A stretch of 35,336 nt of DNA from a virus, in the IMG/VR virus record IMGVR_UViG_3300037961_003917, positions 1-35,336 of that record; one strand, written 5' to 3'. Every line of letters starts with the position of its first letter. Position 1 is the first letter of the stretch. Below are positions 2,056 through 16,108 of the stretch, piece by piece. The position numbers and the translations under genes were made by a program. The notes below the pieces were generated by a model. That model was not told the DNA's origin, did no database searches, and was given only the letters and a program-made list of their open reading frames with translations.

Positions 2056-2286
2056 ATGCAAAAGATCTACAACCTGCTGGGCGTTCTCGGCTTCACGATC
2101 TCAACGACCCTCGCTGTGATCGGCGTGATGGCTTACACGCGCGTTCCATCAATGGTCAAAAACTACGCCAGCGAACTGAAGCTGGAGCTGACGGAATCGA
2201 TCCTCAAACAGGTGCCTGTTCCGGAAATGCCTGAGATGCCTCAGCTCCCGACAGAGACTGGCCCTGCGATCACGTCACCATTTTAG
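2056..2286 (+). CDS. Small membrane-anchored protein (76 aa)
   Basis: One N-terminal membrane segment at about residues 6-27 (LLGVLGFTISTTLAVIGVMAY), then a charged amphipathic helix (KNYASELKLELTESILKQ) and a Pro/Met/Glu-rich tail (PEMPEMPQLPTETGP). The one-TM, helix and proline-tail architecture resembles small phage proteins of the lysis region, such as spanin-like or holin-like proteins, but there is no decisive motif. It starts four bases after the T tract of the preceding terminator, so its transcript must come from read-through. The 3' end overlaps the convergent gene on the minus strand by 17 bases. Confidence 0.5.
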   Translation: MQKIYNLLGVLGFTISTTLAVIGVMAYTRVPSMVKNYASELKLELTESILKQVPVPEMPEMPQLPTETGPAITSPF

Positions 2287-5925: not shown

Positions 5926-6014
5926 GGGACTTACACGAAGCGCCGTGAAAGGTTGAATGGCCAGAAACAACCTCCGCAGCCGTTTCCGGTCCTGCACGCT
6001 TGATGCCCCGGCCA
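5926..6014. other. Convergent intergenic region with inverted repeat
   Basis: Eighty-nine bases separate the ends of the rightward lysis unit and the leftward early operon. They hold an imperfect inverted repeat (GGCCAGAAAC at about 5958 against GTTTCCGGTC at about 5980) but no T tract on either strand. It could act as a weak bidirectional or Rho-dependent end. Nothing else is visible. Confidence 0.25.
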
Positions 6015-6347
6015 TCAGAAATCGATGTCGATGCTGCTAGGGGCAGCAACAGGAGCCGGGGCCGGCTTGTTCTCGGGCTTGTAGGGGCCGCTGAGCTTGC
6101 CCTTCAGCATCGGCCGGGGCTCGCCGTTCCGGTTCTTAAACATGCTGTTCCAGCCAGCGAGGCGCAGCCGAACAACAGTTTTGTCTTGGTAGTTGGTCTC
6201 CCGGTCTGCGGTCTGCAAGTGGCTGATCAGAGCCGCGACATCCTCCTCCAAGACCTCGATTGATCCGGTGACATCAGGGCTTTTGTCTGTGCGCTTGTCC
6301 TCCTCGAGCGAGGTGAACTGGGCGAATCCGATTGAAAAGTCAGACAT
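6015..6347 (-). CDS. Putative ssDNA-binding-like protein (SSB-type acidic tip)
   Basis: 110 residues: MSDFSIGFAQFTSLEEDKRT, then an acidic helix, then a strand-rich block (KTVVRLRLAGWNSMFKNRNG, MLKGKLSGPY), a Pro/Ala linker and an acidic-aromatic end SSIDIDF. The layout of beta core, flexible linker and D-I-D-F tip mimics single-stranded DNA binding proteins, whose acidic tip recruits partners. It is the last gene of an operon with an ERF annealing protein and a RusA resolvase, which would need an ssDNA binder. No clear OB-fold motif is visible, so this is inference. Its start overlaps the ribbon-helix-helix gene by eight bases. Confidence 0.5.
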   Translation of the reverse strand: MSDFSIGFAQFTSLEEDKRTDKSPDVTGSIEVLEEDVAALISHLQTADRETNYQDKTVVRLRLAGWNSMFKNRNGEPRPMLKGKLSGPYKPENKPAPAPVAAPSSIDIDF

Positions 6348-6531
6348 TGGTGTGTCCTTTGAAGAAACGAGAAACGATGATTTTCAGCGCTTGGTTGGCG
6401 CTGTAGCTCCGGCTTTGCATGAAGTGGTGGAGCTTGGCGGCTGTATCGGGATCCAGCCGCACAGAGAACTGGTTTGCGCGCCGCTTGTCGTCGGCGATCG
6501 CTTGAGGGGTTTTCCACGGATCATTGGTCAT
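6340..6531 (-). CDS. Ribbon-helix-helix-type small DNA-binding protein
   Basis: 63 residues. A beta-strand (NQFSVRLDPDTAAKL) followed by two short helices (LHHFMQSR, SANQALKIIVSRFF) is the Arc/MetJ ribbon-helix-helix pattern, in which the strand of a dimer enters the major groove. It lies between the ERF gene (four-base overlap at 6528-6531) and the putative SSB. It is a good candidate for a transcriptional regulator of the early operons, perhaps of the GGCGCGCC palindromes described below. That link is untested inference. Confidence 0.6.
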   Translation of the reverse strand: MTNDPWKTPQAIADDKRRANQFSVRLDPDTAAKLHHFMQSRSYSANQALKIIVSRFFKGHTNV

Positions 6532-7202
6532 TTCTTGGCTTGTTTTTTGATGAACTCGTTCTCAAGCAGCCGCACCTGCTCCTCGATCCATGCCTTGTGC
6601 TTCTGCTTTTGGATGCCGTCAGAAACTTTGGTCGCGGTGATGCGGAACTGAGAGCGGAAGGATTCGCACAGCTGTTTCTGGGCAGCCTTGTCGCCCATGC
6701 CGCCGTCCTTCTCAGGCGTGGCGATCGTGGCGATCATTCCGATACAGAGATCCTTCTCTTGTTTGGTCAGGTCCTCTGAGGCTTTGGCTGCGGCCGGCTC
6801 AGCTTTGCCACCTCGGACTGGCGGGGCGGTGGGCTCCAGATCAGCATCGTTGTCCTCGATGCCGACGCAGAGGCCGAGCACTGCCTGCAAGGCATAGCGA
6901 CGGGTATAAGTCATCGCCTTGCCCCACTCCTGCGTGCCGTTCTTGCCGGCATTGATGGTGAGCGGCGTGACGGATGAAACCTGCTGACCGCTGACGTGCA
7001 TCAGCGTGGTCCGCAGTCCTGGTGTGCCATTGATCTGCTCTGGGAGCTGCGAGACGGCGAGGCCGTTCGCTCTGAGAGCGGGGCCAATCGTCGAGAGGAT
7101 GCCGGGCAGGTTGGCGAAGCTGCCGTGATAGCTGTTGTCGTTGTCGTGAATCGTCGGGACCGCCTGCTGAAAGCTGATGAGCGCAGCAGCGAGATCACTC
7201 AA
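6528..7202 (-). CDS. ERF-family single-strand annealing protein
   Basis: ERF superfamily recombinase (PF04404): an N-terminal MSDLAAALISFQQ helix, then the SYHGSFANLPGILSTIGPAL region, and the signature YTRRYALQAVLGLCVGIEDN at about residues 99-118. The C-terminus is Ala/Lys-rich and ends in a coiled region. Such proteins anneal complementary strands in phage recombination and genome circularisation. I place the start at TTG 7202 because the protein then begins like other ERF proteins and overlaps the RusA stop by only eight bases. GTG 7226 and ATG 7295 are longer options. A PD-(D/E)XK nuclease and a resolvase in the same region complete a recombination module. Confidence 0.85.
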   Translation of the reverse strand: MSDLAAALISFQQAVPTIHDNDNSYHGSFANLPGILSTIGPALRANGLAVSQLPEQINGTPGLRTTLMHVSGQQVSSVTPLTINAGKNGTQEWGKAMTYTRRYALQAVLGLCVGIEDNDADLEPTAPPVRGGKAEPAAAKASEDLTKQEKDLCIGMIATIATPEKDGGMGDKAAQKQLCESFRSQFRITATKVSDGIQKQKHKAWIEEQVRLLENEFIKKQAKK

Positions 7203-7635
7203 GGATGGTGACGGTGATGATTGCACAGGGTCTTTGATCGGGGTTTGCGTAACGGCGGTGGGCGATGAGGCTGACGACCTGAGAGTCGTCGTCATAAGCA
7301 ACGCCCGTCAAGGCGTCACAGATTGCTCGACAGAGCTTGTCGAGGTCTCCGATCCGCTTGGCCGGATATTTGAGAGCAGAGGCTTTCAGCTCTCGGGCCG
7401 GGTCGTTGGCGACGTGCTGGTCGTTGGGCCGCTTGAAAACAAACGTCGCCTCGACCTGCATGGGCATCTTGGCGCGCCATTGGACGGACCGCAATGCCCT
7501 CTCGGCAACGAACTTCACGTCAGTCCGCCATGGCTTTGTCCTCTTGCAGGACTCGACCATCAGGCCACGGCCCTTGTAGCTTTTGCTGCCCTGAGGGGCC
7601 GGAATGCCGGGGACAGTGAACGTGAAGCTGTTCAT
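7195..7635 (-). CDS. RusA-like Holliday junction resolvase
   Basis: 146 residues with the RusA pattern (PF05866): N-terminal FTVPGIPAPQGSKSY, then the catalytic acidic cluster GDLDKLCRAICDALTG (Asp97, Asp99) and AYDDDSQVVSLIAHRRYA (Asp115-117). RusA dimers cut four-way junctions symmetrically, and in phages they resolve replication or recombination intermediates before packaging. The start ATG 7635 overlaps the stop of the upstream HTH gene (ATGA-type overlap), and the stop overlaps the ERF start. The usual length of 120-150 residues is met. Confidence 0.85.
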   Translation of the reverse strand: MNSFTFTVPGIPAPQGSKSYKGRGLMVESCKRTKPWRTDVKFVAERALRSVQWRAKMPMQVEATFVFKRPNDQHVANDPARELKASALKYPAKRIGDLDKLCRAICDALTGVAYDDDSQVVSLIAHRRYANPDQRPCAIITVTILE

Positions 7636-8093
7636 GCCTGCAGTTTTTCCAGCTCCTCTTTGACGGCGCGCTGCAGCAGGATCGACGCGATCTGAGGAAA
7701 CGTCATCTGCTCTCTATTGGTCGAAAGGATGATGTCGCCGATCTTTTCCTCGGTGACCTTTGTCCATGAATCGGACTGCCTGATCAGCTCGAGCCCAGCC
7801 CGAGTGTCAGGGCAGATTGCAGTGCTGACGCATTTTTGGCGGATGTCCTCCATGTGGATCTGTCGCTGTTGGCGGCGTTGCTCTCCGATGTCCTTGAGTT
7901 GCTTGAGCACGGCGTCGCGGCAGTAGAACACTTTTCTGTGGCTGTTGGAGGATTGAATCCAGTGCTCGCCCTCGAGGAGGCGACCACCGGCCCGGTACTT
8001 CTTGAGAGTTGGGATTGAGATTTTGGCGGCGAGGGACATCTCGGAGGTGTCAACCCACACGCGGCCGTGCTGATCGGTGAACGTTTTCTGCAT
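7632..8093 (-). CDS. HTH (MerR/excisionase-like) protein of early operon
   Basis: 153 residues from ATG 8093. Residues 18-65 (TSEMSLAAKISIPTLKKYRA, then GEHWIQSSNSHRKVFYCRDA) resemble a winged-helix excisionase or MerR DNA-binding domain, in which a helix-turn-helix is followed by a wing. A helical, glutamine- and charge-rich region follows, and a C-terminal segment (MTFPQIASILLQRAVKEELE) could dimerise. It lies five bases after the AT-hook gene stop and overlaps the RusA start. No integrase exists in the window, so a role as transcription or replication factor is more likely than excision. Confidence 0.6.
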   Translation of the reverse strand: MQKTFTDQHGRVWVDTSEMSLAAKISIPTLKKYRAGGRLLEGEHWIQSSNSHRKVFYCRDAVLKQLKDIGEQRRQQRQIHMEDIRQKCVSTAICPDTRAGLELIRQSDSWTKVTEEKIGDIILSTNREQMTFPQIASILLQRAVKEELEKLQA

Positions 8094-8098
8094 GATGT

Positions 8099-8584
8099 TC
8101 AGGAGGTTTTCTTGGGACGGCCGGGGCCGCGTTTGACTGGCTCGAGGGATGCGACGTAGCGCTTTTCCGCCTCCTCTCGCGCAGCGGTGAGGCTGTCGCA
8201 ATGCGAGCGGGCTTCCTTTTTCAGCTTTTCGGCGGTGTGCTCAGCCATGAGCACGGTTTTGCACTGCTCAATCATCTGATCTTTGATCAGATCAGCAGCG
8301 CGGTTGTAGTGGCTGAACCAGATGTCGCTGCCATCAGGCGTGAGGCGCTTGAGCTGCTTGTCCAGCTCGCTGTCCTCCTCGACATCTTCGTGCTCCCACG
8401 CTTTTTCAACGCAGAGATCGAAGGCCGAAAGCAACATGTCGATCTTTCGCAGCTCGAGCACGATGTCGTGCTTGGCGGATCGGGCCGCTTCGTGCATTTT
8501 GTTATGGCGCTCGCGCACGAGTTTGTAGCCGTCGTCGTTATCGACGAACTCGCGCTGCGCCACCGGATCGATGGGCTGAGTCAT
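8099..8584 (-). CDS. Helical protein with C-terminal AT-hook-like tail
   Basis: 161 residues from ATG 8584 (MTQPIDPVAQREFVDNDDGY). Mostly long charged helices (RERHNKMHEAARSAKHDIVL, AEKLKKEARSHCDSLTAARE) that may form coiled coils. It ends in KRGPGRPKKTS, a typical AT-hook (GRP flanked by basic residues) for minor-groove DNA binding. The ATG overlaps the upstream winged-helix gene stop by four bases. The longer upstream frame is Arg/Ser-rich noise, so I reject it. A DNA-architectural or replication accessory role is inferred. Confidence 0.6.
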   Translation of the reverse strand: MTQPIDPVAQREFVDNDDGYKLVRERHNKMHEAARSAKHDIVLELRKIDMLLSAFDLCVEKAWEHEDVEEDSELDKQLKRLTPDGSDIWFSHYNRAADLIKDQMIEQCKTVLMAEHTAEKLKKEARSHCDSLTAAREEAEKRYVASLEPVKRGPGRPKKTS

Positions 8585-8913
8585 TTGGCGAAGTAGATAC
8601 GGGCAGTTCGGCCGGAGGAATTGACGCGCCGCTGGGGCTTGCCAGTTTTTGGATCCGGGCGAAACTCGAGAGGAGACGGGTGCATCTCCATCAGATCGCG
8701 AAGACGAGCGCTCGCGGTCTGATGTTTCATCCCCAACAGTTGCTCGATCTGTTCGCACGTCAGCCCTGAGGGGCAGTCGCGGACTTTTTCGAGAACATCT
8801 CGGCACATGCCGTTGATCTGAGAGCGGATGCTTTCAGCAGCGTCGCGACTGGTGTCGATGCCGTTATGAGGCGCCGTTGGGTGATTGAACAACGGCAGGT
8901 CGCTGTGATCCAT
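8581..8913 (-). CDS. Winged-helix DNA-binding protein (110 aa), first gene of early leftward operon
   Basis: Residues 20-34 (DTSRDAAESIRSQINGMCRD) lead into a helix-turn-helix (SGLTCEQIEQLLGMKHQTAS, then ARLRDLME) and a basic wing (KTGKPQRRVNSSGRTARIYF). This DTS-helix-HQTASARLRDL pattern is common in small phage proteins, where it marks a winged-helix domain. It is the first gene downstream of a promoter candidate at 8947-8975 whose spacer holds the TGGCGCGCCA palindrome, so it could autoregulate the operon. That is inference. Confidence 0.65.
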   Translation of the reverse strand: MDHSDLPLFNHPTAPHNGIDTSRDAAESIRSQINGMCRDVLEKVRDCPSGLTCEQIEQLLGMKHQTASARLRDLMEMHPSPLEFRPDPKTGKPQRRVNSSGRTARIYFAK

Positions 8914-8946
8914 GAATTGAGAAACAGGTCCCTCTCGGGTGTGCGG

Positions 8947-8975
8947 AAACTAGCGGCTTTGGCGCGCCATGGCAA
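8947..8975 (-). promoter_or_regulatory. Leftward promoter candidate with TGGCGCGCCA operator (copy 1)
   Basis: On the minus strand a -35-like TTGCCA (8975-8970) and a -10-like TAGTTT (8952-8947) are separated by exactly 17 bases. The perfect ten-base palindrome TGGCGCGCCA (8960-8969) fills most of the spacer. The start codon of the winged-helix gene lies 34 bases downstream. The -10 match is weak (three of six), which fits a promoter needing or avoiding a regulator. The element is 21/29 identical to copy 2 at 9231-9259. Confidence 0.5.
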
Positions 8976-8982
8976 CAAAGCC

Positions 8983-9010
8983 AAAAAAAACCCGCTGTGT
9001 TACCAGCGGG
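8983..9010 (-). terminator. Leftward rho-independent terminator
   Basis: Read on the minus strand: stem CCCGCTG (9010-9004), six-base loop, CAGCGGG (8997-8991), then eight T residues (8990-8983). It lies 17 bases after the stop of the 55-residue gene and eight bases upstream of the next promoter candidate. It therefore isolates that gene, and transcripts from the nuclease and zinc-ribbon genes, from the main early leftward operon. Confidence 0.85.
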
Positions 9011-9026
9011 CCTGCCTCATGCTTTT

Positions 9027-9194
9027 TCAATCTAGCGGTGAGATGACGTCCTCAACATCGAAGGTGATGTCGCGGATCCAGTCATCTAAATGCTCGAACA
9101 TGCCGCTGTGCATGTCGGCCTCTTTGACCGTCATCAGCTCATTGAGAGCCTTGCGGATCCGGATGGCCTGATGAAGCCTCTCTGATGGAGTCAT
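9027..9194 (-). CDS. Small acidic helical protein in its own promoter/terminator cassette (55 aa)
   Basis: ATG 9194 to TGA 9029-9027. The peptide begins MTPSERLHQAIRIRKALNEL, continues MTVKEADMHSGMFEHLDDW and ends with an acidic DITFDVEDVISPLD. It is predicted to be two amphipathic helices with an acidic tail. It is the only gene between a promoter candidate with the GGCGCGCC operator (9231-9259) and a strong terminator (8983-9010). No family recognised. Its size, its charge and its private transcription unit resemble early phage host-takeover or regulatory peptides, but that is inference. Confidence 0.55.
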   Translation of the reverse strand: MTPSERLHQAIRIRKALNELMTVKEADMHSGMFEHLDDWIRDITFDVEDVISPLD

Positions 9195-9230
9195 TGGATT
9201 GATTCAAACAGCGCCGTCTCCGGCACCGAT

Positions 9231-9259
9231 GTTCTAGCGCTTATGGCGCGCCACCGCAA
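9231..9259 (-). promoter_or_regulatory. Leftward promoter candidate with TGGCGCGCCA operator (copy 2)
   Basis: On the minus strand TTGCGG (9259-9254), a 17-base spacer beginning TGGCGCGCCA (9253-9244), and TAGAAC (9236-9231, four of six matches to TATAAT). The start codon of the 55-residue gene lies 37 bases downstream. It overlaps the last codons of the zinc-ribbon gene. Spacer length, the position of the palindrome within the spacer and the following CGCTAG are shared with copy 1. Confidence 0.5.
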
Positions 9260-9494
9260 GAAATGAAGGGGTGAACATCCCCGCCGTCTGCTCCAGCTCA
9301 TCCACCAGCTCGTCCCGGACCTTGAATGTCCCCCAGTTCCCAGCCTGCGATGAAATCGGCGGGCAGGTGATCTCAGCCGTCGGCCAGGTATGGGCGCAGA
9401 TCTTGCACTGACGCTTTCGGCTGATCACTCCTTTTCCTGTATGGCGGGATTCGAGGACGCAAATCAGCGTGGCGCCGCAGCTGGGGCAGTTCAT
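9234..9494 (-). CDS. NrdR-like zinc-ribbon protein (zinc ribbon without ATP-cone)
   Basis: 86 residues from ATG 9494, which shares one base with the nuclease stop (TGATG). Four cysteines, Cys3, Cys6, Cys30 and Cys33, with an intervening ESRHTGKGVISRKRQC segment, copy the N-terminal zinc ribbon of the ribonucleotide-reductase repressor NrdR almost position for position. The NrdR ATP-cone is absent, and the rest is a short unknown helical tail. It could bind DNA as a small regulator or bind the adjoining nuclease. No ribonucleotide reductase gene is present in the window. Confidence 0.6.
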   Translation of the reverse strand: MNCPSCGATLICVLESRHTGKGVISRKRQCKICAHTWPTAEITCPPISSQAGNWGTFKVRDELVDELEQTAGMFTPSFLAVARHKR

Positions 9495-10132
9495 CAAAAA
9501 TCAGGTTGATCGAGTTCGTAGCGGGCCCACATGTCCTCCCAAGCGGCGCGGCAGTCGGCGGGATCCTCTCGAATCACGCGGCAGCCTTCCGGGCCAGAGA
9601 CCACGGTGACGCATTGATCGACGCGCAGATCAGGGTGATGCTGCTGCAGCATCCCTAGATACGCACCGAGCTGGGCAGTAGCCGGCTTCCGTCGTTTTAG
9701 CGCCCCGGCGGAGGAGACAGTCTTCAAATCTCCCAAAATCATCAGCCCTGAAACACCCGGCTCGTCCAGCTCGACCAAAAAATCAAAGCTGCCGCCCATC
9801 GACCGCGCTTCATCAACCAGTCGATATTCGCAGGCATGGAGCCGTATGCGATTGAACAGCGACTCATTGAGGAGCGGTTCGATCCATGGACTCCACTGCT
9901 CGTCATGCACGCAGGGCTCGCCCTTCAAGTGATGCTCGAGCACTTTGTGAATAGCTGAGCCACGAGCGGCCCAGCCTTTGGGCCCGTTCTTGTATCGCTC
10001 CATTCCTGCGCGCTGGCTTTCCGTCAGCTGAAAGCCGACGACCTCAGAAACCGAGCGGGCAAGCAGCTCACCTCGGTAGCTGTATCGATGCGACTCCTCC
10101 TCCAGGAGCAGTTCAGGAATTGGACTTAGCAA
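9494..10132 (-). CDS. PD-(D/E)XK nuclease (phage recombination exonuclease type)
   Basis: About 212 residues from TTG 10132 (MLSPIPELLLEEESHRYSYR). TTG 10192 is a longer option but would leave no room for divergent promoters. Nuclease core: a conserved His in SAIHKVLEHHLKG (about residue 62), Asp in GGSFDFLVEL (117), the GDLKT motif (Asp135, Lys137) and QLGAYLGML (Gln154). This is the PDDEXK_1/Cas4-RecB-like pattern. With the ERF annealing protein and RusA it probably forms a phage double-strand-break processing pathway, with the nuclease resecting 5' ends. Confidence 0.75.
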   Translation of the reverse strand: MLSPIPELLLEEESHRYSYRGELLARSVSEVVGFQLTESQRAGMERYKNGPKGWAARGSAIHKVLEHHLKGEPCVHDEQWSPWIEPLLNESLFNRIRLHACEYRLVDEARSMGGSFDFLVELDEPGVSGLMILGDLKTVSSAGALKRRKPATAQLGAYLGMLQQHHPDLRVDQCVTVVSGPEGCRVIREDPADCRAAWEDMWARYELDQPDF

Positions 10133-10182
10133 CTGGGGCTTGCGGGGCCGGCCAACAATGGCAGAGTCAGGGCCCGAATCAA

Positions 10183-10220
10183 GCCCTGCCAATGCCCATC
10201 ACAGGCCCTGCCCATGCCCA
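10183..10220. repeat. Two 16-bp direct repeats, 22 bp apart, at the divergent early junction
   Basis: GCCCTGCCAATGCCCA (10183-10198) and GCCCTGCCCATGCCCA (10205-10220) differ at one base and are offset by 22 bases, about two helical turns, so both lie on the same face of the helix. They cover the start region of the rightward early operon, next to the leftward nuclease start. This is the arrangement of a two-site operator or a short iteron pair. They also overlap coding sequence, so chance or a protein repeat cannot be excluded. Confidence 0.4.
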
Positions 10221-10389
10221 GTCAGGGGAGATCATCGACCCGCACGGCGAATACCGCGTCGTCATCGATCCGCGAGTCCTGCAGGAGCTGCATCGGAAGA
10301 AGCCAATCGGGCAAACCCGCGTCTCTTGGGTGAACCTGCTGCTGCAACGAGCCATCGCTCAAGAGCCCGAGCCCATCGCGCGTGACTAA
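10192..10389 (+). CDS. Possible ribbon-helix-helix protein, first gene of early rightward operon (65 aa)
   Basis: MPITGPAHAQSGEIIDPHGE forms a flexible start, followed by a strand (YRVVIDPRVLQELHRK) and a helix (RVSWVNLLLQRAIAQE), broadly the ribbon-helix-helix order. It opens the rightward early operon directly opposite the divergent nuclease gene, where a regulator is expected. Its first codons lie in a 22-bp-spaced direct repeat, so it may bind its own control region. No clear ribosome site. The longer TTG-started frame (10120) is rejected for lack of domain content. Confidence 0.45.
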   Translation: MPITGPAHAQSGEIIDPHGEYRVVIDPRVLQELHRKKPIGQTRVSWVNLLLQRAIAQEPEPIARD

Positions 10390-10750
10390 AAATGAAGAAG
10401 AGCGGCGCGCCTTTGAGCTGCTCCAGTGGGTGCCCTTTGGGCTCCCTGCAGAATTTGATGACGAGCTAGCTCAGGCCGGCTACTACTCAAAAATCCAGCG
10501 GCAGCGCTCTGATGCAGCGCTTGACGCTTTTGATGCTGCTCACCCCTACGAGACCAGTCCTGAGCTGGCCGCCTTTCGGGAGTTGGAGCGCCTTCGCATC
10601 TATTCCCCCCACACCCTGTTCTCCCCGTCAAAAGCGAAGGATGGTTTCTACACCAGACGACTTAAAGAGCTTCGTCAGCCCGGAAGCTCTGAACGACCAC
10701 AAAACCCTCCTGCGCGACGTCCAAAACGCAGCTACCGCCGTCATCTCTGA
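10382..10750 (+). CDS. Hypothetical early protein (122 aa)
   Basis: Starts at GTG 10382, overlapping the previous stop by eight bases. A helical acidic protein (NEEERRAFELLQWVPFGLPA, then DDELAQAGYYSKIQRQRSDA and PELAAFRELERLRIYSPHTL) with a very basic C-terminus (RRPKRSYRRHL). Its last 110 bases overlap the helicase start, an unusually deep overlap. The two may be translationally coupled, as helicase-loader or helicase pairs often are. The loader role is only suggested by position. Confidence 0.45.
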   Translation: MTKNEEERRAFELLQWVPFGLPAEFDDELAQAGYYSKIQRQRSDAALDAFDAAHPYETSPELAAFRELERLRIYSPHTLFSPSKAKDGFYTRRLKELRQPGSSERPQNPPARRPKRSYRRHL

Positions 10751-12290
10751 CGAGCCGGACCCATTCCTGCAGAGCCAGCGACTTCGCCTGATGGCTGAGG
10801 AGTTGGGCTGTCCTATCAGCGAGCGGACAGCTGCGACCTATTTGGCTCGCGCTCGCGGCGAAACTGCCGGCGTCAGCGTTCCTCGAATGAAAGGGGAGCG
10901 GATGGATACGACCCCTACGCCTTGGGCGTGGGAGGGCGTGATCATGGCCGGGACTTTCAATCTGCTGGTGGCCCCGCCAAAGGTCGGCAAGTCAGCGCTC
11001 ATGGTCGGCATGATCGGTGCGTGGTGGCGCGGCGATGAGGCATACCTAGGGCAACCGCTACATGGACCCTGCCCGAAGGTTTTCATCGTCGGAACTGACC
11101 AGCCGGAGAACGATTGGCACACGCTGTTCCAGCGGGAGGGCCTCGTCGCAAAGGATGGCGGCCTCGGCGGCCCAGTGGAGATGCTTTGGCATACCGGCGC
11201 GCCTCTGCATCTCACGGCCGAGGGGATAGCCCACCTGGGGGAGATTGCAGCGGCCAACCCACGGTCGCTGTTCCTTCTCGATAGCTACCACGCTTGCATC
11301 AGTCCGCTTGGCGTTGATGAAGCAACCAGCGCCTTTGATGGCCCAGCGCGTGACCTTGCTCATGCCTTGGCCCCGCATCACGCCACGCTGGCGATGATCC
11401 ATCACACCAACAAATCCGTTGCGGGCGGAAATGCAACCAACGCCTCTCGCGGATCGAATGCCCTCCCGGCAGCGGCAAGCCTGACGATCCTGATGAACTG
11501 GTTTCGGCAGCCTGCTGAGGGGCAGACCCAAAAGGATCACCGGGTAATCCTGAAAACCCAAGGCCGAGCCAAAGGCACGACGCTGCTGATCGAGCTGCAG
11601 GACGATGGCTGGATCCATCACGGCGATGGTGATGCCGTGCTTCAGGGCGAGGCTTTGCAGGAGGCCGCTGACGACCTGCAGGGCCGAGCTGCCGACATCT
11701 TTGACTACATCAATGAGCGGTGGATCCTCGGATCATTCCCCTGCACGGTTTCGGAGCTTGGGCGCCGCTTCAACCTTGAGGCCAACAAGATCCACCGTTG
11801 CCTCCGCAGCCTGAATCGCAAGGGGCTCGTGCACCAGGTCGGTCAGGCGGAGATCGGTGCAGAGGGAGGCCGCCCCGCTGCGCTGTATGCCCCGATCGCC
11901 CCCCTCCCCTCTGAGCCCCAGATAAACGTCAAAAAGGTGAAAAACCCTGAGGAGGCTCCCACGTACGCGCACGCGCGCACACAGGAAATAAGGGGTTTAT
12001 CACCTTCTTCACGTTCTTTTCCCTTGCAGCAGGGAGGGGAGGTTTATCGCCTCGCTCCTGAGGGTTTGTCACCTCTCTCTGAGGGCGACGCTGTTGAACG
12101 CTTCGCGGGCGGGAAATGGAGCAACGGATGGGTTGTGCATGACGCGTCCAATCCCTTGTCAATCACGATCGCGAAGCTTGGGCAACCGCTGGTTCAGTTC
12201 CGCAATCAGCGCCCCGATCTGGACATCCGTCCCTGTCAAGGCTCCGCCTTTTCGGCCCCAGCTGAGACCGTTGATCCGTTCGACTTCTGA
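10641..12290 (+). CDS. RepA-like RecA-fold replicative helicase with winged-helix tail
   Basis: 549 residues from ATG 10641. RecA/AAA_25-type core: Walker A APPKVGKSAL at about residues 111-120, Walker B SLFLLDSYHA with Asp214, and the HHTNKS motif (254-259) followed by the RepA-type ASRGSNALPAAAS. A winged-helix domain follows (about 350-400: DYINERWILGSFPCTVSELG, then IHRCLRSLNRKGLV), then a Pro/Ser-rich disordered region and a small C-terminal domain (AVERFAGGKWSNGWVVHD). This is the plasmid/phage hexameric helicase type that opens an origin. The phage has no polymerase, so it must recruit the host's. The disordered segment is encoded by the candidate origin (11936-12073). Confidence 0.75.
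   Translation: MVSTPDDLKSFVSPEALNDHKTLLRDVQNAATAVISDEPDPFLQSQRLRLMAEELGCPISERTAATYLARARGETAGVSVPRMKGERMDTTPTPWAWEGVIMAGTFNLLVAPPKVGKSALMVGMIGAWWRGDEAYLGQPLHGPCPKVFIVGTDQPENDWHTLFQREGLVAKDGGLGGPVEMLWHTGAPLHLTAEGIAHLGEIAAANPRSLFLLDSYHACISPLGVDEATSAFDGPARDLAHALAPHHATLAMIHHTNKSVAGGNATNASRGSNALPAAASLTILMNWFRQPAEGQTQKDHRVILKTQGRAKGTTLLIELQDDGWIHHGDGDAVLQGEALQEAADDLQGRAADIFDYINERWILGSFPCTVSELGRRFNLEANKIHRCLRSLNRKGLVHQVGQAEIGAEGGRPAALYAPIAPLPSEPQINVKKVKNPEEAPTYAHARTQEIRGLSPSSRSFPLQQGGEVYRLAPEGLSPLSEGDAVERFAGGKWSNGWVVHDASNPLSITIAKLGQPLVQFRNQRPDLDIRPCQGSAFSAPAETVDPFDF
11936..12073. repeat. Candidate replication origin: four GGGTTTNTCACC iterons plus Z-like tract
   Basis: Four near-identical 12-mers lie within 138 bases of the helicase gene: 11936-11947 (inverted copy), 11993-12004, 12040-12051 (AGGTTTATCGCC) and 12062-12073. 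Between the first two lies a perfect 23-bp alternating purine-pyrimidine run (11961-11983), and a pyrimidine-rich stretch (12004-12026) follows the second. One copy is inverted, so the repetition is not simply a protein repeat. Lambda places its origin iterons inside the replication gene O in the same way. Origin function is inference. Confidence 0.5.
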
Positions 12291-12889: not shown

Positions 12890-12918
12890 TTGCCATATGG
12901 CGCGCCATGCCTCAACAT
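12890..12918 (+). promoter_or_regulatory. Rightward promoter candidate with TGGCGCGCCA operator (copy 3)
   Basis: TTGCCA (12890-12895) is followed by the palindrome TGGCGCGCCA (12898-12907) and a weak -10 candidate CAACAT (12913-12918) at 17-base spacing. It sits in the 84-base gap before the operon of small genes starting at 12971. The TTGCCA plus palindrome pairing is shared with copies 1 and 2 in the leftward early region. Confidence 0.4.
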
Positions 12919-12970: not shown

Positions 12971-13207
12971 ATGGATTGGCACAATTCCTCTTTGGCTCTC
13001 AAAGAATGGCTTGAGGCGACACAGCCCGAGCCTCCTGCAGAGCCTGAGCGCGCTTTCCTTTGCGAAGCCCGCGACCCCAAGACCAACGAGCTGATCTGGG
13101 ACGACTGGATCTACAGCCGCAAGGATCGCCTGCTCCGCATCCGCGAAGCCAAGCAGGACGGCCTCAACCTGTTCATTGACAACGTCCCTTGCGAGATCTG
13201 GTCATGA
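12971..13207 (+). CDS. Hypothetical small early protein (78 aa)
   Basis: First of four tightly coupled small genes. Acidic and aromatic (MDWHNSSLALKEWLEATQPE, then DPKTNELIWDDWIYSRKDRL). GGAGA lies about 14 bases before ATG 12971. The stop overlaps the ATG of the next gene (ATGA). No domain recognised. The block is placed like phage early accessory (host takeover or anti-defence) genes. Confidence 0.55.
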   Translation: MDWHNSSLALKEWLEATQPEPPAEPERAFLCEARDPKTNELIWDDWIYSRKDRLLRIREAKQDGLNLFIDNVPCEIWS

Positions 13208-14635: not shown

Positions 14636-14753
14636 CGACCTGGTGGGTTTTGTCGATTCTCAGCACCTAGTAGATCCGAAGATCTTGCAGCTGCAGGTAG
14701 CGTGGCGGCAGCGAAACAATCCGCGTGGCGTCAATCAACAGCCTGAAGTCTGA
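14580..14753 (+). CDS. Hypothetical small protein (57 aa)
   Basis: MPNPKIRVLNSGVIRIQIDD then LVGFVDSQHLVDPKILQLQV and a Gln/Asn-rich end. Beta-strand-rich start. It overlaps the previous gene by 56 bases and the ParB-domain gene by 29 bases, a crowded arrangement. Protein-like composition supports it, but overlap on both sides lowers confidence. Confidence 0.4.
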   Translation: MPNPKIRVLNSGVIRIQIDDLVGFVDSQHLVDPKILQLQVAWRQRNNPRGVNQQPEV

Positions 14754-15354
14754 CCATAAAAACGCACGGAAACGCACAGATCGGTCCTCGGAACTAATCA
14801 AAGAGTCCCTGCAGCGTTACGGCGCTGCTCGCTCCATCGTCATTGACGAGGAGAATCGCATCCTCGCCGGCAACGGAACCATCGAAGGGGCCAAGGCCGC
14901 CGGCATCAAGAACCTCCGCGTCATCGAGACAGAAGGCGACGAGATCATCGCCGTTCGACGCACCGGCCTTTCTGAGGAAGAAAAGGTCGGCCTAGCTCTC
15001 GCCGACAACCGCACGGCCGATCTTTCCGAGTGGGACGTCGAGATGCTCCACAGCCTCTCGCAAGAGCACGACATCTCCAGCTGGTTCACCGAGGAAGATC
15101 TCGAGGCATTCCTCGGCGATGAAGTCGAGCCGCTGGATGAGATGCCAGAGCTGAACTCTGACGATCGCGAGCCGATCCAGCAGATGACGTTCATCGTGCA
15201 CGACCTTCAGGCCGAGATCATCAAAGAGGCCATTGAGAAGGCCAAGGCCATGGGCCCGTTTGTCGATACCGGCAATGAGAACGGCAATGGCAACGCCATC
15301 GCTCGAGTTGCTGAACTGTTCCTCAGCTGGGGAGGTGATCATGGCCTCAGCTAA
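14725..15354 (+). CDS. ParB/Srx-domain protein, partner of the Mom-like enzyme
   Basis: 209 residues from GTG 14725. N-terminal ParB domain: KNARKRTDRSSELIKESLQR, then the hallmark RILAGNGTIEGAKAAG and LRVIETEGDEIIAVRR, and a EEEKVGLALADNRTADLSEW region. The C-terminal part is an acidic linker and a short alpha-beta segment (QMTFIVHDLQAEIIKEAIEK). ParB-domain proteins use CTP or nucleotides. In phages they are often fused or adjacent to DNA-modification enzymes, not segregation systems, and no ParA is present here. It overlaps the Mom-like gene by 14 bases. A guiding or accessory role in modification is inferred. Confidence 0.75.
   Translation: MASINSLKSDHKNARKRTDRSSELIKESLQRYGAARSIVIDEENRILAGNGTIEGAKAAGIKNLRVIETEGDEIIAVRRTGLSEEEKVGLALADNRTADLSEWDVEMLHSLSQEHDISSWFTEEDLEAFLGDEVEPLDEMPELNSDDREPIQQMTFIVHDLQAEIIKEAIEKAKAMGPFVDTGNENGNGNAIARVAELFLSWGGDHGLS
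15328..15343 (+). promoter_or_regulatory. Strong ribosome binding site for the Mom-like gene
   Basis: GGAGGTGATC immediately before ATG 15341 is an almost full-length match to the anti-Shine-Dalgarno sequence, far better than most starts in this genome. It lies inside the end of the ParB-domain gene. It decides the start at 15341 and suggests high expression of the modification enzyme. Confidence 0.6.
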
Positions 15355-16108
15355 GGACATCAAGGTCGCGCCCATCTCTGCCAAAGATGCAGCGGCTGTC
15401 GTCAAGCGGATTCACTATTCCGGCTCGACTGCCGCAACCTCAAGCCTTCACCTAGGCGTCTTCCTCAACGGCCGGCTTGAAGGGGCCATGCAATTCGGCA
15501 GTCCCATCGATAAACGCAAGGTTCTCCCTCTTGTCGAGGACACGCCTTGGAATGGCTTCCTAGAGCTGAACCGAATGGCGTTCAGCGAAAACCTGCCCCG
15601 CAACAGCGAAAGCCGGGCCTTAGCCGTTGCCTTTCGGCTGATCAAAAAGCATTACCCGCACATCCAGTGGGTGCTCTCATTTGCCGACGGCGCTCAATGC
15701 GGAGATGGCACCATTTATCGGGCCAGTGGCTTTCACCTGACCGGCATCCGGCAAAACAAGACGATCCTCAAGCTCCCCAACGGCAAGGTCGTCACTGACC
15801 TAACGCTCAACGTCAACCCGCAAAAGATGGGCGGCAACGCCTCTCAGTGGAAAAAGCGTGGCGCCAAACCTCTGGCGGGCTTCCAGCTTCGCTACATCTA
15901 TTTCCTCGATCCAACAGCCAAAGAACGCCTCACAGTGCCGATCCTTCCCTTCACCCGAATAGCGGAAATGGGCGCAACTATGTACCGTGGTGAGAGCACG
16001 CGCGTGAAGCAGGCCACTGTCGGGACCACCGATAAGGCGGCGGAGCATCACCGACCCACGCGCTCCAATCTTTCCCAGGCCAGCCCCAAGACCCAGGAGG
16101 CTGACTAA
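15341..16108 (+). CDS. Mom-like DNA adenine hypermodification enzyme
   Basis: 255 residues. The GNAT-related Mom pattern is clear: HYSGSTAATSSLHLGVFLNG (25-44), LELNRMAFSENLPRNSESRA (74-93), and WVLSFADGAQCGDGTIYRAS (110-129), a near-diagnostic block shared with phage Mu Mom. Mu Mom adds an acetamido (methylcarbamoyl) group to adenine N6 and protects DNA against many restriction enzymes. The C-terminal 70 residues beyond the core are basic and unstructured. The gene lies right before the terminase genes, so DNA would be modified late, before packaging. The exact product here is inferred from the family. Confidence 0.8.
   Translation: MASAKDIKVAPISAKDAAAVVKRIHYSGSTAATSSLHLGVFLNGRLEGAMQFGSPIDKRKVLPLVEDTPWNGFLELNRMAFSENLPRNSESRALAVAFRLIKKHYPHIQWVLSFADGAQCGDGTIYRASGFHLTGIRQNKTILKLPNGKVVTDLTLNVNPQKMGGNASQWKKRGAKPLAGFQLRYIYFLDPTAKERLTVPILPFTRIAEMGATMYRGESTRVKQATVGTTDKAAEHHRPTRSNLSQASPKTQEAD

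Follow-up and report, generated by a model that had tools for sequence, protein, structure and literature searches.

A candidate ribbon-helix-helix regulator and promoter-spacer operators in a family of uncultured cyanobacterial viruses

Results

Gene content of the window

The stretch of viral DNA analyzed here (the window) comprises positions 1 to 35,336 of IMG/VR virus record IMGVR_UViG_3300037961_003917. Based on its S-CBS3-like helicase (10512-12290), which shares 50% protein identity with that of Synechococcus phage S-CBS3 and 40% with that of S-CBS1, the window is assigned to a cyanosiphovirus. A leftward operon was found to encode an exonuclease, a Zn-ribbon protein, the Holliday junction resolvase RusA (7195-7635, minus strand) and an Erf-like single-strand annealing protein (6528-7301, minus strand), followed by a ribbon-helix-helix (RHH)-like protein of 63 residues (6340-6531, minus strand) and by ssb, a label given from the position and sequence of the gene. 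Genes for a winged-helix-like protein (8581-8913, minus strand) and a 55-residue acidic protein (9027-9194, minus strand) were also located, as was an NrdR-like Zn-ribbon ORF (9234-9494). No integrase or resolvase match (PF00589 or PF00239), of the kind that would mark a lysogeny repressor-operator system, was detected in the record, which may be incomplete. Elsewhere in the window, a Mom-like DNA modification protein is encoded at 15233-16108 (plus strand; phrog_1384, E 1e-50), adjoining a ParB-like protein (14725-15354) and the terminase, an arrangement that may point to DNA modification against host restriction. A small protein (2056-2286, plus strand) matched a 'plasmid stability' PHROG family (phrog_568, E 6e-9).

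Four promoter-like sites share one palindrome

Two minus-strand elements, P1 (9231-9259) and P2 (8947-8975), had been predicted as a near-identical pair of promoters with a palindrome in the spacer, and their coordinates, the 21 of 29 equal positions and both palindromes were reproduced. P1 reads TTGCGG-TGGCGCGCCATAAGCGC-TAGAAC and P2 reads TTGCCA-TGGCGCGCCAAAGCCGC-TAGTTT, each with a 17-nt spacer and with the operator at spacer offset 0 (TGGCGCGCCA at 9253-9244 in P1; 8969-8960 in P2). The distance to the ATG is 36 nt for P1, which overlaps the 3' end of the NrdR-like ORF, and 33 nt for P2, which heads the winged-helix/rusA/erf/RHH/ssb operon with the winged-helix gene as the first gene downstream. 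The prediction had missed two further copies of the palindrome, one inside rusA (7470-7479) and one in a rightward site (12898-12907). The former belongs to P4 (7466-7494, minus strand; TTGCGG-TCCGTCCAATGGCGCGC-CAAGAT, 17-nt spacer, operator at offset 9), which is located upstream of erf and the RHH gene. The latter belongs to P3 (12890-12918, plus strand; TTGCCA-TATGGCGCGCCATGCCT-CAACAT, 17-nt spacer, operator at offset 2), which is located upstream of a small gene (12971-13207, plus strand) of a family that is also preceded by operator-promoters in relatives.

The palindrome TGGCGCGCCA was found to be the commonest 10-mer palindrome in the window, with 4 exact copies where Markov models of three orders predict 0.06-0.10. 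All 4 copies fall in promoter-like sites with a 17-nt spacer. A strict sigma70 consensus scan of positions 6000-11500 found no promoter, since the hexamers, which are weak at P1 (TTGCGG/TAGAAC), are too degenerate for such a scan and comparison with relatives is needed. P1 and P2 are very probably genuine promoters that incorporate a site for protein binding.

The architecture recurs in related viruses

The same architecture, TTGNCN-17-CATANT with a 10-bp operator of the form TGGYNNRCCA, was found in about 150 related contigs. After collapsing near-identical contexts, 146 non-redundant operators were obtained, and 124 of these lie in TTG-17-[TC]ANNNT. A spacer length of 17 scored 129, while other lengths of 13 to 21 nt scored 2-25. 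The start positions of TTG over the operators were concentrated at -15 (90), -8 (14), -7 (7) and -6 (12) and hardly elsewhere, and the operators were found at discrete spacer offsets of 0, 1, 2 or 9 after the -35. In the first promoter-context scan, 124 hits were detected compared to 17, 8 and 17 in Markov controls. The family dyad was also recovered as the top over-represented near-palindrome in many relatives when no motif was presupposed.

A wider survey of eighty helicase-bearing contigs revealed other cores in the same architecture, and the operators of the different clades were of class TGGCGCGCCA, TGGCATGCCA or TGGTATGCCA. The TGGCATGCCA operator is repeated in one group of contigs (L042/L044/L054), TGGTATGCCA (equal to TGGCATACCA) is present in most other helicase-bearing contigs, and TGGCCGGCCA was found in contig L089. 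Near-consensus TTGACA and CATAAT hexamers are present in many relatives, and the operator-promoter system recurs over distant helicase lineages. Taken together, these genome comparisons indicate that the operator set is genome-wide and common to a large family of uncultured cyanobacterial viruses.

A contig search by helicase profile gave one contig, which carries a gammaproteobacterial MAG label, and thus provided no host or prophage information. An S-CBS3-like helicase contig (L181; PAFU01000001.1) that is filed under a gammaproteobacterial MAG (MED810) is probably a mis-binned virus contig.

An operator written into the codons of rusA

Inside rusA the operator is in frame as TGG-NNN-RCC-A and, depending on the clade, specifies W-Y-A, W-H-A, W-H-T or W-R-A, with TAT, CAT, CGC or CGT as the middle codon, GCC or ACC after it and an A to close the site; the window has TGG CGC GCC A (W-R-A). 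The site was found to be conserved across clades, with synonymous codons fixed while the residue changes among Y, H and R. Representatives were taken below 85% identity, and four of the 38, in which the W-R-A is probably at a different position, were set aside. In the 26 representatives with W-Y/H-A/T, the middle codon was always TAT or CAT and the next always GCC or ACC, with A as the following base, and no TAC, CAC or other Ala/Thr codon was detected. Elsewhere in these genes, TAT and CAT are used at 40-44% and GCC and ACC at 30-36%; compared to this usual codon use, the fixed codons indicate selection on the DNA site. At this place in rusA the operator is absent from some groups (e.g., L065, L075 and L089).

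The 55-residue gene and its operator-promoter

The acidic 55-residue ORF and a terminator were present between P1 and P2 as claimed, the latter an intrinsic terminator (8988-9013, minus strand) with a 10-pair stem and a T-run tail. By sequence, this gene has a promoter and a terminator of its own, as is expected of a moron. The prediction of paired promoter-operators would have been contradicted by relatives that keep the genes and not the palindrome, which is not what was observed. Ahead of the 55-residue gene, the palindrome was found to be conserved or nearly so in the ten contigs that carry a close winged-helix homologue, and the place of P1 in relatives is occupied by TTGCCA-17-TAATGT and similar sequences. 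The whole P1-gene-terminator-P2 arrangement is present in contigs L005 and L014. Contigs L006-L008 keep P1 and the 55-residue gene and lack the terminator and P2, such that the gene reads directly into the winged-helix gene. In L009-L013 the promoter is TTGACG-17-CAATGT, and its GGCGCGCC core shifts by one base among these contigs while the 17-nt spacing stays constant. A GGCCCTTCGGGGCC-T5 hairpin abuts the winged-helix start codon in this last group, which has no second promoter, and could be an attenuator. The 55-residue gene is retained at this locus across L005-L014, and no homologue was detected beside the winged-helix gene in L015-L019.

Homologues of the 55-residue gene are found 42-49 nt behind an operator-promoter at several genomic places. 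The exact upstream operator is present at this distance in 13 of the 20 distinct homologues; the other seven comprise four with the variant P1 of L009-L013, one without an operator (L035) and two for which the start was called too far upstream (L048 and L049). The window clade carries the gene leftward, the L042 clade has it rightward after the helicase, and in L016 and L047 it occupies other places. An operator-promoter likewise precedes other small genes, mostly with 30-50 nt from the -10 to the ATG, and arrays of different ORFs, each with its own operator-promoter, were detected in L065 (5059, 5351, 5859 and 6157) and L017. These small-ORF arrays span 5044-6420 of L065 and 3884-5108 of L017.

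The view of P1, gene and terminator as a moron-like cassette is thus borne out in one respect, as the 55-residue gene is found at different genome positions together with an operator-promoter of its own, and fails in another, as the variable piece in the nearest relatives is the terminator with P2 and the gene itself is kept. None of the sequences seen supports insertion or deletion of the gene through recombination of P1 with P2; where close relatives differ, it is the terminator and P2 that are missing. The findings support the moron idea in a broader form, in which the exchanged unit would be an operator-promoter with its gene.

The RHH protein as candidate regulator

Control of P1 and P2 by one regulator, as the original prediction proposed, is very probable. 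Among the candidates it had named, the RHH protein at 6340-6531 is favored over the winged-helix protein and over a second RHH-like protein of 65 residues (10192-10389). The latter is divergent from the exonuclease gene, and its placement was corrected to the plus strand. The winged-helix protein as common regulator was rejected, as it was not detected in most operator-bearing relatives. The NrdR-like Zn-ribbon protein was also considered and is not universal. A third RHH-like gene, located after the helicase in L042, L044 and L068, was set aside as well, as its pattern was not found in the window clade, which has operators.

The 63-residue protein has a predicted DNA-contact triple of Q21, S23 and R25 in the strand QFSVRL, positions that we take to correspond to Gln9, Asn11 and Arg13 of Arc and to His6, Asn8 and Arg10 of Mnt. 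In the majority of contigs covering the region a homologue lies in synteny behind rusA/erf, and among these homologues R25 is invariant while the positions of Q21 and S23 vary. An AF2 monomer model was extended at residues 20-27 with helices at 28-41 and 45-62 (pLDDT only 69.5), and the top Foldseek hits of this model were mostly RHH proteins (CopG, AmrZ and Arc), all weak with E > 1. Sequence homology to Arc/Mnt or to an RHH family of Pfam or PHROG was not found: there was no Pfam hit, the PHROG Arc-like repressor family matched only at E=0.2, and a PDB profile search gave no significant Arc/Mnt match (best E=0.16, to '56B', 2kel). Searches for the RHH protein in named phages by tblastn gave no match.

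Operator class appears to track the two variable DNA-contact positions of this protein, a correlation among genomes that share descent. The strand is QFSVRL in the window clade and QFGVRL in L009-L013, with TGGCGCGCCA as the operator in both; QFQVRL or FFQVRL goes with TGGCATGCCA, HFQVRL or LFQVRL mostly with TGGTATGCCA, and KFNVRL is found alongside CG cores. For operators in promoter context, with some operators inside rusA counted in and the HQRC clade (2 sites) kept apart, the middle contact residue was Q with an AT core in 91 of 92 cases, S or G with GC in 13 of 13 and N with CG in 2 of 3. When all RHH columns were ranked by their normalized mutual information against operator class, the two variable contact positions came first and second. 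A second contig set was fetched by RHH profile alone, and the top near-palindrome of each contig, with no motif named, gave the same pairing. Exceptions at the first contact residue were HQR with TGGCATGCCA in L171-L179, L067 and L069, and FQR with TGGCATACCA in L170; a KNR locus (L111) with an AT core is a further exception. On the helicase tree the GC operator arose once. On a rusA plus exonuclease tree, independent pairs for the first contact residue were typically 2-3 concordant and almost none discordant, and a sign test on these pairs was without significance as there were too few independent switches. Given the shared descent, the few switches and the exceptions, the RHH protein at 6340-6531 is a well supported but not proven regulator.

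A clade with the strand HFQCRL (L121 7983-8189, L127 and L146) is perhaps a further specificity class; GGGTATACCC is repeated in these three contigs, and TGGCGTGCCA lies within rusA in five HFQCRL contigs.

The small number of independent switches, together with the many small uncharacterized proteins of these phages, would be compatible with a host factor or an unconsidered phage protein that binds the palindrome while the RHH protein tracks it by shared descent only. We regard this as unlikely, as the operator core varies by phage clade though the hosts are presumably similar, the association is carried by the predicted contact columns and not by random ones, and the system recurs over distant helicase lineages. 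Binding by the RHH-like protein at 10192-10389, with the 6340-6531 protein doing something else, was weighed in the same manner. Nearly all operator-bearing relatives with coverage of the region, S-CBS1 and S-CBS3 among them, encode the 10192-10389 protein, but its strand does not follow operator class: it differs under the same operator TGGCATGCCA (GEYRVLVD in L042 and AVARVLID in L044) and is near-identical under different operators (GEYRVLVD in L042 and GEYRVVID in the window). Its best mutual-information columns are, in addition, mostly outside the predicted strand, and we consider it an improbable ligand of the operator.

Discussion

A model for early gene control

The RHH protein at 6340-6531 is likely, with a probability that we put at roughly 0.7, to be an Arc/Mnt-like autorepressor that shuts off early promoters through the spacer operator. 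P1 and P2, two of four such sites in the window, would be active as sigma70-type early promoters, and their 10-bp operators would most likely be bound directly by the phage's own 63-residue RHH protein, with one dimer per palindrome. The DNA would be read through residues Q21, S23 and R25 of the antiparallel beta-ribbon, and, with a dimer centered on the 10-bp dyad, the middle residue would fall above the central two base pairs, the place of greatest difference among the clades. The bound protein would be expected to block RNA polymerase, as each of the sites is placed between the -35 and -10 boxes or overlaps them. P2 and P4 point toward the RHH gene from upstream, no terminator was found in the interval, and the product of this gene should thus repress its own synthesis (candidate autoregulation). 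Upon accumulating, the protein would switch off the early genes, i.e., the 55-residue gene, the recombination operon and the rightward small genes, and the simplest such circuit would be a negative feedback that ends early transcription. Accessory small genes in this phage family often form a unit with an operator-promoter of their own and would thereby enter the regulon as they arrive.

The operator positions are most simply read as steric repression, since each site overlaps the core promoter and the spacing already has its optimal length. Activators normally bind upstream of the -35. An RHH protein that activates, or that represses at some offsets and activates at others in the manner of AmrZ and NikR, would nevertheless fit the imperfect hexamers such as those of P1 and the dual regulation described for some RHH proteins (PMC3325190). 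This alternative is rendered doubtful by the overlap of all sites with the core promoter, by the 17-nt spacing and by the near-consensus hexamers of many relatives, and repression by the 6340-6531 protein is preferred. A chance palindrome or coding-sequence coincidence at P1 and P2 might be suspected from the shortness of a 10-mer in a GC-rich window, the empty strict consensus scan, the overlap of P1 with an ORF end and the copy within rusA, but is extremely improbable and already contradicted by the comparative data, namely the copy excess, the scan against Markov controls, the unbiased recovery of the dyad, the fixed registers and a rusA codon choice that fits the operator and not usual codon use.

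Implications

A broader proposal, which we advance tentatively and at somewhat under even odds, is that the RHH protein and its operators co-evolve as specificity groups in marine cyanosiphoviruses, that small accessory genes are traded with a matching operator-promoter, and that the operator is constrained enough to dictate which residue (Y, H or R) RusA has at the center of W-x-A. If true, these viruses would offer a naturally occurring set of specificity changes in an Arc-like protein, which possibly defines groups by whether they cross-repress when they infect the same cell. A rule is suggested by which new small genes arrive behind a promoter with the shared operator and so enter without escaping control. 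Early-gene control of cyanosiphoviruses appears largely undescribed in the searchable literature. The present analysis supplies a regulator that can be tested, together with its sites, and a natural set of matched changes in protein and DNA at known contact positions. These matched changes bear directly on how RHH proteins switch DNA specificity.

Comparison with known systems

Phage RHH autorepressors and repeated elements before small phage genes are already known. The searchable literature yielded no description of this operator family, of the registers it occupies or of a protein cognate to it, and a search by the letters of the motif gave no phage-operator paper among the matches listed. 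Synechococcus phage S-CBS3 resembles the window in its related helicase, its rusA and its RHH homologue (gp32; L020 23378-23638); it is the only cultured relative in which the RHH protein was found, and it has just one matching promoter site, of class TGGTATGCCA. The S-LBS1 comparison paper (PMC6157547) describes no such regulon, and the word 'repressor' is absent from its main text.

Repeated conserved elements are located before many small genes of Cluster K mycobacteriophages, where the inverted repeats of the ESAS have a consensus that differs by subcluster and are suspected protein sites (PMC3203893). These SAS/ESAS elements differ from the present operators in sequence; the SAS is thought to act in translation initiation, and no promoter register or cognate protein was proposed there. 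The Pseudomonas RHH regulator AmrZ reads GGC half-sites by strand residues that include Lys18 and Arg22 (PMC3325190), a likeness to the TGGC...GCCA and the invariant Arg at the third contact position found here. By contrast, AmrZ is a cellular regulator, with two dimers on an 18-bp site that has separated half-sites.

P22 Arc acts between the -35 and -10 of Pant, a placement that resembles that of the present operators, and controls itself; its operator is a 21-bp site. Compared to the Arc/Mnt system of P22, the viruses examined here have one short palindrome, TGGYNNRCCA, at several promoters per genome, with no significant sequence match between the proteins and no antirepressor gene recognized. 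Autogenous control by Arc is a subject among the reference titles of PMC2629481. The likeness to Arc and Mnt in the immunity I region of P22, with its 'ant moron', lies in a small phage RHH-like protein whose variable contact residues are at the same strand positions, in its predicted autogenous control, and in regulated genes that have a moron-like setting.
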